A DNA stretch of 52,171 nt. Origin: Gemmatimonadaceae bacterium (GTDB taxonomy: Bacteria; Gemmatimonadota; Gemmatimonadetes; Gemmatimonadales; Gemmatimonadaceae). The position numbers were made by a program, and so were the translations under genes. How positions within the stretch are numbered: the stretch's first letter is position 1; each line of letters starts with the position of its first letter. The stretch lies in the NCBI GenBank assembly GCA_013813715.1, contig JACCRF010000176.1:1-52171 (forward strand), in the 5' to 3' direction. Under the pieces are notes generated by a model. It saw nothing but the letters and a program-made list of their open reading frames with translations. It was not told where the DNA came from and did no database searches. Of the stretch, positions 41,967 to 46,410 are shown piece after piece.

Positions 41967-42698
41967 ATGCTGTTCCGCTCCGCAGGCTTCTGCGCGGTAC
42001 TCGGCTGCCTCGCACAGCCCGCACCCGCCTATGCCCAGATCAACCGGTCGTCCATCACACTCGGCGACATCGAACGCGCGGTACACATCGGAAGAGTGAT
42101 ACTCGACGCCACCGGCAACCGCCCAAACCGGTCACCCCGCCCCACAACCCGAAGGGATCGCGCAACCGATGAAGCGATCGCTGTCGCGGGTGCAGTCATC
42201 TCGACTCGTTCGGCGTCACGCACCGCGCGCCGGGCCGTGGCGACTGGCGACGACTATGTCGGCGTTCCCTACGTTTGGGGCGGCAGCACTCCCCGCGGAT
42301 TCGACTGCTCGGGGTTCGTGCAATACGTCTACCGCGAGCACGGCGTACGGCTTCCGCGCACTTCGCGCCAAATGGCGCGCGCCGGCCAAGCCCTCCGTGC
42401 GAACGTCGGCGCGCTGCGGGAGGGAGACTTGATGCTGTTCCGCGGACGGAACGGCGTGATCGGCCACGTCGCCTTGTACGCCGGACGCAACCGGATACTC
42501 CACTCGTCGTCGAGCGGCAACGGCGTACGCTACGACGACCTATCGAGCAAGCGCGGACGCTACTACCGCACCCACCTTGTCGCGGCCAGACGCGTCACCG
42601 AAAACGGTCGGTCACTCGTTCAGGCCCTGTCCCTGCTCTACAAGGAGAAACCGTTCGACTATTTCGATCCACCAGACGAGGCACCACGGCCACGATAG
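41967..42698 (+). CDS. Secreted NlpC/P60 peptidoglycan hydrolase
   Basis: A 243-residue exported protein (signal to about residue 23, cleavage near AYAQ). A 65-residue linker precedes the NlpC/P60 domain: VPYVWGGSTPRGFDCSGFV with nucleophile C114, IGHVALYAG with H167, and RILHSS with a further His (H179) as the third polar residue. It would cleave D-glutamyl-meso-diaminopimelate bonds in stem peptides. The gene has its own upstream region. The patatin gene follows 119 nt later. Confidence 0.9.
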   Translation: MLFRSAGFCAVLGCLAQPAPAYAQINRSSITLGDIERAVHIGRVILDATGNRPNRSPRPTTRRDRATDEAIAVAGAVISTRSASRTARRAVATGDDYVGVPYVWGGSTPRGFDCSGFVQYVYREHGVRLPRTSRQMARAGQALRANVGALREGDLMLFRGRNGVIGHVALYAGRNRILHSSSSGNGVRYDDLSSKRGRYYRTHLVAARRVTENGRSLVQALSLLYKEKPFDYFDPPDEAPRPR

Positions 42699-42817
42699 CA
42701 TTTGAACTGGCGGCTCCCGACCGGCCTCTACATACTTTGCCGCTACCGTTAGCGCCTGCTGCTGGTCAGTCGATACGGTGATTCCAATCGCGACGTTCAC
42801 CCGCAGGGAGAACCGTG

Positions 42818-45562
42818 ATGAGCCACGCACCATCGCCCGATGTTGCCGACCTCCAGCGCGTACTCGACGAGGAGCTGAAGTACATCCACCACCATCGCCA
42901 TAGCGATATCGAGAATAGCGATGTCGTCAGGCGATCCCTCATCGGCCTCGCCATGTCCGGCGGCGGAATACGCTCCGCCACCACGAGCCTCGGAATACTG
43001 CAGGCACTCGCACGGATGCGAATCCTGCCGATGGTTGATTTCGTCAGCACGGTCTCGGGCGGCGGCTACATCGGCGCATGTCTCTCATCGCTCCTTTCCT
43101 GGAACCAGAACGCGCCGCCAACGCCCCGCGATCCAGCCGCGGCATACACCTTCGGCGCTGGGGAGATGCCGGCCTTTTCGACGAACCCGGAAAACTTCCC
43201 CTTCCGCGCCGATCACTCCGCCCACCGGCAGGATGTTCCGCCGCACGGGCCGCGGCCGGCCCAGCCTCGACCGCAGCACCCTCGAGCCGGAAACGGCATC
43301 GTCGCGCACCTGCGCACTCACGGAAACTTCCTCATCGCGCACCACGGCCTCTTTCGCCGGGAAGCCCTTCGCGGCGTCGGAGCGCTCACTCTCGGCGGGG
43401 TCTATAACGGCACTGCGTTTCTCCTCACGCTTCTGACGGCGAGCGCCGTGTACCTTGCGATGATTCTCGCGATGGCGCCGGCGCTCCCCAAAACCCTCGC
43501 CAAACCGCAGACGGTTGCAGCGGCTCCGGATACGATTCACCACAGTCTCGTTTCGGCCGATTCTTCCATCGTCCGCACCAGCCAGGGAATGGAGACCTGC
43601 GATCCGCGCGTCTCCACCTGTGCCACCGAGACGGCAACGAAGCTCCGCCCCACAGGAATCCGGGACGGGATCGCTCGCAACGCTCGGGCAGTCGCCATCG
43701 TGTTCGCGACGGCACTGCCCCAGCGAGCGCCCGCCGGTGAATCACTGCTGGCCATCGTCCCACTCCCGCTCCGCCCCATCGTCCTCGCGCTGTTGCTCGG
43801 GGTGCTCTCGGTGGTCGGAATCCTGATCTGGATTTCGATCGCACTGCGCCGCTACGTCCGGGGCCGTTCCACAACCGGCTCATTGTCGCCCGGCGATTCC
43901 GTGGAAGACCGCTTTGAGCGTCGCGTACTCCGACGCTCGGCCTGGGCATTGCTTCTGGCGACCGGGGCCGCCGTTATCGCTGGCCAGATCCTCTGGCGCA
44001 GGAGCGTCTCGTTCAACGAGCAGGTCGTCTGGCTCTTCGTCCCACTGGCCGTGCTTACCGGGGCATGGGTAACAAGCTTCATCAGCAATGCCATTATCCT
44101 GCCGATGCGGCGAAAGTGGACTCGGCGGACTCGCTCGCTGACTTCGGCGTTCTACGCGATTGCAAGCTGGGGGTGGTGGGTCATGCTTGCCGTCGGCATC
44201 GCACCACTGGCGATCTATGCGATGCGCGACCACCCTTTGAGCCTTGGAGTCGGAGCCGTCGGTTCGCTGATCGCGAGTCGCCTGCTGGCCGGCCGCACAT
44301 CCGGGTCAAAGCGATTCTCGCTGCCACCGGGTGCGCTCCGGATTCTGCTCGGACTCGTGGTACTGCTGGTCATCACCCTGGGCGGGCTGTTCTTCGCCAC
44401 GCTGCTTGCTAAGCGTTTCGAGACCTGGCAGAGCACCGGAGCTATCGCAGCGATCGGTGTGCTGGTCTTCATCGCCCTGGGATGGCGCGTCAATCACAAC
44501 CGGCTCGGCCCGCAGTACTTCTATCGTGACCGTCTGTCGGAGACTTACCTCTTCAGCGAACTGCCGGACGAAGATGGCAGACTGCGCGTATTTCGCGACG
44601 CGATGGAGATGCCGCTCAATTGCCTGCACGGCCAGTCGAAGGCCGCCGACTGGCGCAACACGGCGCCCTATCACCTCATCGGCGCTGCCATCAACCTCAG
44701 CGGAAGCCGGGATCTCACCCGCAAGGACCGCAAATCGGGATACTGGCTCTTCTCGAAATTGTTCTGCGGCTCGATGCAGACAGGATTTCGCGAGACGTCG
44801 AAGTACAGGGGCGGCCTCACCAAGCTCGCCAACGCCATCGCGATTTCCGGCGCGGCGGCATCATCGGGCATCGGGAAGGACACCTTTTTTGCCCAGGCCT
44901 TTGCAACGGTGCTGTTCAACATCCGCCTCGGCAGCTGGCTCGAGAATCCGGCGCACGAGAGCAGCGTCAAGAGCAACGAGAACAACGTTTTCTGGCCATG
45001 GTACCTGGTTCGTGAAGCGCTCATGAACACCAAAGAGACAAAGCGTCTCGTAAACCTGTCGGACGGCGGTCACACCGGCGACAACCTCGGCATCTATCCG
45101 CTGCTTCAGCGTCGCTGCAAGGTCATCATCGCGTGCGATGCCGAACGCGATCCGAGGCTCACCTTCGGATCATTCACCGAAGCGCTGCGACATGCGTACA
45201 TCGACATGGGAATCGACGTTGACATCGATCTCACAATGATTCGTGCAGATCCGCAAACGGGCTTGAGCCGGACCCATTGCGCAGTGGGCCGAATTCACTA
45301 CCCTGACCGGCCTGATCAGGAAAGCACGCTGATCTACATGAAGAACTCGCTGATGGGTAGCGAGCCCGAGCCAGTGCTCAATTACAAGATGAAGTGTCCG
45401 GACTTTCCGCACGAAACGACCGCCGACCAGTTCTTCGACGATGCCCAGTTCGAGTCCTACCGCGCGCTTGGCGTTCACGTCGCTGAGCACACGTTCGGAC
45501 GCTGGGCACAGGGACTGGAATTCGATACTGCCCGCGCACATCACACTCCGAGCGCGGCATGA
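42818..45562 (+). CDS. Patatin-like phospholipase with a large membrane insert
   Basis: A 914-residue protein. The N-terminus has the patatin oxyanion loop SGGGIRSATTSLG (47-59) and a nucleophile region FVSTVSGGGYIGACL (S80). Then come some six to eight predicted membrane helices (about 200-222, 322-342, 376-396, 403-428, 447-468, 508-530 and a likely seventh near 545). The catalytic Asp appears only much later, in NLSDGGHTGDNLGIYPLL (D749), followed by IIACDAERDP. Patatins normally hold both residues within about 200; here about 670 residues separate them. The nucleophile context is TVSGGG rather than GxSxG, as in other large bacterial patatins I recall. ATG 42818 follows GGGAG by 7 nt. It is coupled to the next gene by an ATGA overlap. 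Confidence 0.87.
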   Translation: MSHAPSPDVADLQRVLDEELKYIHHHRHSDIENSDVVRRSLIGLAMSGGGIRSATTSLGILQALARMRILPMVDFVSTVSGGGYIGACLSSLLSWNQNAPPTPRDPAAAYTFGAGEMPAFSTNPENFPFRADHSAHRQDVPPHGPRPAQPRPQHPRAGNGIVAHLRTHGNFLIAHHGLFRREALRGVGALTLGGVYNGTAFLLTLLTASAVYLAMILAMAPALPKTLAKPQTVAAAPDTIHHSLVSADSSIVRTSQGMETCDPRVSTCATETATKLRPTGIRDGIARNARAVAIVFATALPQRAPAGESLLAIVPLPLRPIVLALLLGVLSVVGILIWISIALRRYVRGRSTTGSLSPGDSVEDRFERRVLRRSAWALLLATGAAVIAGQILWRRSVSFNEQVVWLFVPLAVLTGAWVTSFISNAIILPMRRKWTRRTRSLTSAFYAIASWGWWVMLAVGIAPLAIYAMRDHPLSLGVGAVGSLIASRLLAGRTSGSKRFSLPPGALRILLGLVVLLVITLGGLFFATLLAKRFETWQSTGAIAAIGVLVFIALGWRVNHNRLGPQYFYRDRLSETYLFSELPDEDGRLRVFRDAMEMPLNCLHGQSKAADWRNTAPYHLIGAAINLSGSRDLTRKDRKSGYWLFSKLFCGSMQTGFRETSKYRGGLTKLANAIAISGAAASSGIGKDTFFAQAFATVLFNIRLGSWLENPAHESSVKSNENNVFWPWYLVREALMNTKETKRLVNLSDGGHTGDNLGIYPLLQRRCKVIIACDAERDPRLTFGSFTEALRHAYIDMGIDVDIDLTMIRADPQTGLSRTHCAVGRIHYPDRPDQESTLIYMKNSLMGSEPEPVLNYKMKCPDFPHETTADQFFDDAQFESYRALGVHVAEHTFGRWAQGLEFDTARAHHTPSAA

Positions 45563-46410
45563 GAATCCCGTGGCCGAAGGGGCGCAAAGCGACGGATGAG
45601 TGGATCTGGCGGCACGAGCTCGCCCCGCCGGCCAATCCACCGCGCTTCGATGACCCCGAGGGCAAGCTCGATGGGGCCTGGCGTGAGCTCGTCCTCATTC
45701 ACACCAGCTTTCGGGCGACCAAGCAGGAGGAGTATCGCGAGCTCGTCGACGCGCTGAGGGAGATCGAACGATTGTTCCTTGAGCGGCCGGAGCTCAGCGC
45801 TTACTACGATGAGTGTCACCAGCCTCCAGGAACAAACGTGGATGTTCTGGCGGATGTCCTGCCGGCGGTAACCCATCCACACCGGCATGTCGCCGCAATC
45901 CAGGCTTATTTCATGGAGGACGTCTACTATGTCCTCCAGCTCGCGCGCTACGCAAACGCACTCGACAATCGCGGATGGATGAACCTCTTTCGGTCGTGGG
46001 GTCAATCACCCACGTTCAACGCGGTTTTCAATAACCTGCGTGCAACATTCGCCGAGGAGTTTGTTGAGTTTTATGAGGTCTATATTCGGTACTATTTCGG
46101 GCCGATCGAGACTTGCCCTGTCCCCCACCCGTGGGATGCGGAGCCCGTACGACGCGACCTTCGCGACAGCAGCAAGAAACCGGCGGCGGCAGGGACATCA
46201 ACCGGGTGGTCGCTGCCTGGCGCCTATCTGGACTCGGGCATTCAGGAGGCCGGCGTCGGCGATAACGTACGCGGCGGATTGCTTCCGAGCCCGGGAACGG
46301 AGAGCCACGGTCTGAAAGATGACATGGACGCCATGTCAAGGACTGACCCCGGCATTAAGGCCGCGTCACGTGCGGAAGGTGTAGGCGGCGCCTCTGGTGG
46401 AAACACATAG
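45559..46410 (+). CDS. Unknown protein coupled to the patatin gene
   Basis: A 283-residue soluble protein with no signal or membrane segment. The first 200 residues are mostly helical and aromatic (ELVLIHTSFRATKQEEYREL, AYFMEDVYYVLQLARYANAL, FNNLRATFAEEFVEFYEVY). The last 80 are low-complexity Gly/Ser/Asp-rich and probably disordered. I recognise no family. Its start overlaps the patatin stop by 4 nt (ATGA), so the two are translated together and probably act together; a regulator or adaptor of the lipase is the simplest idea. It is followed by a convergent cupin gene. Confidence 0.75.
   Translation: MRIPWPKGRKATDEWIWRHELAPPANPPRFDDPEGKLDGAWRELVLIHTSFRATKQEEYRELVDALREIERLFLERPELSAYYDECHQPPGTNVDVLADVLPAVTHPHRHVAAIQAYFMEDVYYVLQLARYANALDNRGWMNLFRSWGQSPTFNAVFNNLRATFAEEFVEFYEVYIRYYFGPIETCPVPHPWDAEPVRRDLRDSSKKPAAAGTSTGWSLPGAYLDSGIQEAGVGDNVRGGLLPSPGTESHGLKDDMDAMSRTDPGIKAASRAEGVGGASGGNT

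Follow-up and report, generated by a model that had tools for sequence, protein, structure and literature searches.

Group IV cytosolic phospholipases A2 (cPLA2) and the patatins PlpD, CapV, and CapE are the closest described systems to the gene pair analyzed here. The cPLA2 enzymes carry the motifs GLSGS and DSG, and CapV and CapE are known anti-phage effector patatins. The pair lies in the window, a 52,171-nucleotide stretch of the Gemmatimonadaceae contig JACCRF010000176.1, and consists of a patatin gene and a smaller partner gene. As a preliminary description of this DNA had already noted, Ser80 and Asp749 of the patatin flank a membrane section, and the next gene begins within an ATGA overlap. 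The features are as follows.

42818..45562, forward strand: membrane-inserted patatin / cPLA2-like phospholipase, 914 aa (PF01734; model pTM 0.78; cPLA2-alpha Z 25.6)
42818..43111, forward strand: N-terminal catalytic half, residues 1-98, with GGGIRS and TVSGGG (invariant in 56 sequences; pLDDT about 70-95)
43418..44491, forward strand: membrane insert with eight predicted transmembrane (TM) helices, residues 201-558 (hydropathy, loop charges, long helices of low pLDDT)
44510..45511, forward strand: C-terminal catalytic half, residues 565-898, up to the FESYRALG helix (alignment, model, weak PLA2_B match)
45559..45562, forward strand: ATGA in which the patatin stop overlaps the partner start
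45559..46410, forward strand: partner gene, 283 aa (homologous to a C-terminal domain fused to patatin relatives)
45649..46089, forward strand: helical domain conserved in the partner, at about residues 31-177 (48-row alignment; pLDDT mostly 73-98)
46141..46407, forward strand: disordered partner tail rich in Gly and Ser, residues 195-283 (pLDDT mostly below 50)

An alternative patatin start, a GTG at 42815, lies three bases upstream of the ATG at 42818. Third codon positions are rich in G+C in both genes (0.76 in the patatin and 0.70 in the partner) which, together with an orthologous pair in another phylum, indicates that the pair is not a chance arrangement of reading frames.

The N-terminal half alone accounts for the match to the Pfam Patatin family (PF01734; residues 44-91, E 2.9e-6, 28.1 bits against a cut-off of 27.7). 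A second match, to PLA2_B (PF01735), falls within the C-terminal half (residues 716-779, E 8e-4) and scores 18.4 bits, below the cut-off of 23, while the patatin of the orthologous pair reaches 23.2 bits against the same family. In a 56-row alignment, no variation is seen in the glycines of the oxyanion loop (G48-50), R52, the serine and following glycines (S80-GGG), or D749-GGH, nor at about 30 other positions. The features that place a protein among the patatins, namely an oxyanion loop of the form GGGxR/K and a Ser-Asp dyad with DG[GA], are thus present as GGGIRS, Ser80 (43055-43057, within the nucleophile elbow TVSGGGY), and Asp749 (45062-45064, within SDGGH) followed by two glycines. The elbow itself reads TVSGG where patatins have GxSxG, position 78 being threonine in 53 of the 56 sequences and serine in the other three. 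Judged from the alignment, TVSGG is a family-wide variant of the motif, which lowers strict motif membership and leaves the fold assignment intact. The calcium-binding N-terminal C2 domain of group IV cPLA2 was also sought, and the window patatin has no Pfam C2 match; in the model, the first catalytic strand follows after only about 40 residues.

We modeled the patatin with a five-model AlphaFold2 prediction (pTM 0.78), in which both catalytic halves are mostly confident and the membrane section is of low confidence. The best structural match is human cPLA2-alpha (1cjy; Z 25.6, 393 residues at 3.9 A), followed by cPLA2-delta (5iz5; Z 24.8), PlpD (5fya; Z 19.4, 235 of 255 residues aligned), CapE (Z 19.3), CapV (Z 17.5), and patatin (Z 17.3), and Foldseek gives E 2.6e-5 for cPLA2. 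Because the single superposition on cPLA2-alpha uses model residues 4 to 914, Ser80 and Asp749 are predicted to lie in one active site. We infer this assembly from the superposition of both halves on solved enzymes, and the model thus agrees with the earlier expectation that the lipase fold assembles around the membrane section, both halves superposing on one cPLA2/patatin domain.

The section between the two halves had been described as a 350-residue membrane region, which is correct in that eight hydrophobic segments occupy residues 201-558. Topology was assigned from hydropathy and the positive-inside rule. The alternating short loops carry 9, 6, and 4 lysines and arginines on one side as opposed to 2, 1, and 2 on the other, and this charge bias, combined with the even number of TM helices, suggests that both catalytic halves are cytosolic and that a 101-residue loop (about 220-320) is on the outer side, with the proviso that the rule is not clean for this loop, since it has 11 lysines and arginines of its own. 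Two cysteines (METCDPRVSTCATE, 43592-43624) occur in the predicted periplasm-facing loop of the patatin and could form a disulfide. Across aligned family members, the part of the chain that corresponds to window residues 98 to 565 is 343 to 601 residues long, and crude TM counts among relatives range from 6 to 11. Median identity to the window patatin over the 56 rows is 54% for the N-terminal half (38-98) and 45% for the C-terminal half (740-890), as opposed to 15% for the membrane section (180-560), which indicates strong constraint on the catalytic halves and freedom to vary in the membrane section.

A catalytic domain split by a membrane section is not peculiar to this protein but is the rule in a large bacterial family. 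When one genome per species was scanned, at least 501 related loci were recovered, the best 80 of which were retained for domain analysis; the same type of scan with the window patatin alone as the query returned no relatives. These relatives belong to Acidobacteriota, Pseudomonadota, Nitrospirota, Verrucomicrobiota, Planctomycetota, Myxococcota, Bacteroidota, and other phyla, and the enzyme is one of soil and aquatic bacteria. A tblastn search of plasmids matched 42 records, mostly from rhizobia, with matches from both ends of the query that cover under about 56% of it, and no phage record carries a member of this patatin family. In the papers searched, this membrane-inserted patatin architecture is undescribed. 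A quick tree of the patatins shows a sporadic distribution with many gains or losses. Among the sampled Gemmatimonadota genomes, 31 of 298 have a patatin match, so the patatin is not a core function.

One account of the role of the enzyme is housekeeping lipid remodeling, whereby the acyl chains of phospholipids are recycled or edited, and its spread over many free-living phyla fits such a role, as does the adjacency of lipid genes in single relatives: a fatty acid desaturase 10 bases downstream of the patatin at one locus (L040) and an AMP-binding, acyl-CoA-synthetase-like gene 5 bases downstream at another (L145). Its absence from most of the sampled Gemmatimonadota genomes (present in 31 of 298) and its unconserved neighbors weigh against this account, to which we give somewhat less than an even chance, and which is compatible with the assignment of the parts of the system proposed below.

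We also identified the nature of the partner, for which no match was found in Pfam, NCBIfam, or PADLOC. The preliminary description of a helical protein with a disordered tail agrees with the model, which places helices at residues 33-177 and a tail at 195-283 mostly below pLDDT 50. Against solved structures, the partner model yielded nothing convincing (best Foldseek E 1.7); the EDS1 complex, the best VIA-align match at Z 5.4, was rejected as a homolog, as this score does not rise above the noise for helical proteins. A direct sequence search with the partner by itself matched 3 of 298 Gemmatimonadota genomes and no plasmids. The sparse direct matches suggested an orphan, a notion that a fused match in one genome (G131) showed to be wrong, and a match to the tail in another (G051; 32% over 62 residues, E 8.5e-4) was set aside because it looks like composition. 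The partner-alone search matched a segment of a 1253-aa patatin from another genome of the same order, and three further Gemmatimonadota patatins have the same segment C-terminally. A 48-row alignment of the domain is marked by the motifs MED-VY, DNRGWMNLFRxW, and F..F.

With a profile made from these fused segments, 12 of 395 genomes gave matches, comprising the window, ten fused cases, and one weak match at a contig edge; in all ten of the other clear Gemmatimonadota matches, the domain lies within the patatin reading frame, directly behind the core. Among the best 80 patatin loci, 52 have the domain (not an estimate of frequency, since the scan query contained it), and in 50 of these it is fused behind the C-terminal half, while in the other two (L128 and L149) it is encoded by the next gene. 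Applied to 297 genomes from the phylum to which L128 belongs, the profile matched the genome of L128 and one fused case only. Over about 690 genomes of two phyla, there was no clear match to a domain without a patatin, the one weak contig-edge match apart. By this comparison of sequences, the partner is the patatin family's own C-terminal helical domain, present here as a separate gene. It is therefore not the separate and unassignable component that it had been taken for, homologous domains being fused to the patatin at 50 of 52 loci, and the gene-neighborhood search proposed for it finds the domain only with patatins, the one weak contig-edge match aside. The observation named as refuting the earlier idea, a partner seldom adjacent to patatins, is thus not what the genomes show, though the domain is usually part of the same chain and many family members lack it. 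Since nearly all relatives that have the domain carry it as the C-terminal end of the enzyme itself, the two genes almost certainly work as one lipid-cutting unit, as previously supposed. Taken as a whole, the earlier interpretation is supported for the single unit and for the fold around the membrane, and not supported for the partner as a second component of its own.

Many members of the patatin family are without the domain, so catalysis in general does not require it. The nearest relatives of the window patatin besides L128, namely L040 and the rhizobial proteins, lack it, and genes downstream of the domain-less relatives examined include no diverged copy of the partner. Behind the domain, most fused relatives carry roughly 110-230 more residues with an RVQDHLRRxGLG-type motif, a lobe that the window partner does not have. 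The corresponding lobe of the L149 partner shows resemblance to acetyltransferases at levels below cut-off (Acetyltransf_7, E 0.0023; Acetyltransf_1, E 0.003), and four other tails of relatives gave no Pfam acetyltransferase match.

Translational coupling of a small gene adjoining a lipase could also be read as the arrangement of an immunity or inhibitor protein that restrains a toxic enzyme. We consider this highly unlikely, as the same domain is covalently fused in cis to the lipase in most relatives and, in the model, the catalytic N-terminal half of the patatin begins almost at once, leaving no room for a secretion signal.

A further question is whether the gene boundary is genuine or whether a frameshift in the assembly cut one fused gene in two. 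The assembly is a draft of 183 contigs, relatives with the domain are nearly all fused, and the two frames overlap by only four bases. Against this stands an orthologous separate pair with a different junction in another phylum (L128; JACOUA010000034.1, an Acidobacteriota MAG) and a further separate pair at L149, and residues 1-30 of the window partner have no clear counterpart in fused forms. The genes of L128 are in the same order, its patatin being 45-47% and its partner 43-46% identical to those of the window. Unlike the window, a short gap takes the place of the ATGA overlap: the L128 partner shares the frame of the patatin, starts 19 bases behind it once a stop codon has been passed, and is preceded by its own GGAGG-like sequence resembling a ribosome site, GGGAGGAG. 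In the quick tree, the window and L128 patatins form a clade with support of 100, while L149 sits on another branch beside a fused relative. As the separate arrangement exists in at least two lineages, it is not an assembly slip of the window contig, and we regard an artefactual split as extremely improbable. Near its end (L128:6949-7120), the L128 partner apparently changes frame, and the other frame encodes VPGIYLDSGRRE, which resembles LPGAYLDSGIQE in the tail of the window partner; this likeness is weak (E 0.45) and hints at a possible short motif conserved within the disordered tail.

The genes surrounding the pair are ordinary by Pfam (TPR/BTAD regulator, LiaF-like, HD, NlpC/P60, and cupin), and no family occurs more than twice among 42 close neighbors of relatives; clustering of the neighbors shows none that is conserved outside close kin. 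With neighbors this poorly conserved, gene context does not decide the role. About 117 bases upstream of the patatin and on the same strand is an NlpC/P60 peptidoglycan hydrolase (41967-42698); a glucosaminidase and an N-acetylmuramidase lie upstream of relatives in Ensifer (L004) and Hymenobacter (L007), respectively, so that cell-wall hydrolases beside membrane patatins are loosely recurrent. In one relative (L042:5218-6069), a Ser/Thr protein kinase gene overlaps the end of the patatin by four bases, at the place of the partner.

Some of these contexts recall immunity. In another gemmatimonadotal genome, a gene with TIR and SLOG (LD_cluster2) domains begins 25 bases after a family patatin (L041:5002-7059), possibly an unlisted nucleotide-signaling immune operon, and in an Acidobacteriota MAG a caspase (Peptidase_C14) gene is directly upstream of a fused patatin (L115:1364-3244). 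The pair in the window might be an immune or cell-death effector, in which the patatin destroys the membrane of its own cell upon a signal transmitted by the partner or its disordered tail. These single relatives, the sporadic distribution with its many gains or losses, and the presence of CapV and CapE among the fold matches are consistent with such a role. Conversely, neither window protein matches a catalogued defence protein in PADLOC, the neighbors in the window are ordinary, no neighbor family exceeds two of 42, and the family is absent from phage records, such that we consider an effector role unlikely. We lean toward membrane-lipid remodeling or a response to stress and regard defence as the less favored reading.

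We propose that the two genes probably encode one membrane-bound, cPLA2-like lipase distributed over two polypeptides, with the partner as an optional C-terminal domain made as a subunit. The Ser80/Asp749 dyad would sit in a single alpha/beta catalytic domain facing the cytoplasm; after the nucleophile helix, the chain would leave this domain, pass through about eight TM helices, and return before the Asp strand. The membrane section would tether the active site to the inner leaflet and would probably form or deliver a substrate path, and the expected chemistry would be hydrolysis of acyl esters in membrane glycerolipids, of the phospholipase A or lysophospholipase type. The partner, presumably produced as a separate and translationally coupled subunit, would attach to the C-terminal region of the patatin, regulating or stabilizing it. 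The sequences and the model show the homology, the invariant catalytic residues, the predicted coming together of the halves, and the fusion of the partner domain in relatives; we infer the topology, partner binding, regulation, substrate, and physiological role of the pair. More generally, and tentatively, the family might place its active site on an intramembrane lipid path controlled by the helical domain in cis or in trans, often with a GNAT-like lobe as a possible ligand sensor. A naturally separate domain allows the lipase and the domain to be expressed apart or together, which is impossible with the fused relatives, and a partner gene previously without a family gains its first family assignment.

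Among described proteins, the patatin is of a known kind, its membrane-inserted form is widespread, and the helical domain is unnamed. The "Patatin-like phospholipase family protein" of rhizobial plasmids (e.g. WP_262263666.1 from Phyllobacterium) has the same succession of N-terminal half, membrane insert, and C-terminal half; unlike the window patatin, these proteins have no partner domain, either fused or adjacent. PlpD, CapV, and CapE share the patatin fold (Z 16-19), the GGGxR oxyanion loop, the Ser-Asp dyad, and DGG, but their catalytic domains are compact and without a TM insertion, and the window pair has no Omp85 barrel and no cyclic-nucleotide system nearby. Group IV cPLA2 provides the best fold match over the whole catalytic domain of the window patatin model and likewise has a long sequence distance between its Ser and Asp, with an insertion separating the two. 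The window patatin differs from these enzymes in being bacterial, in having no C2 domain, in the eight predicted TM helices of its insertion, and in combining the elbow TVSGGG with DGG, as opposed to GLSGS with DSG.
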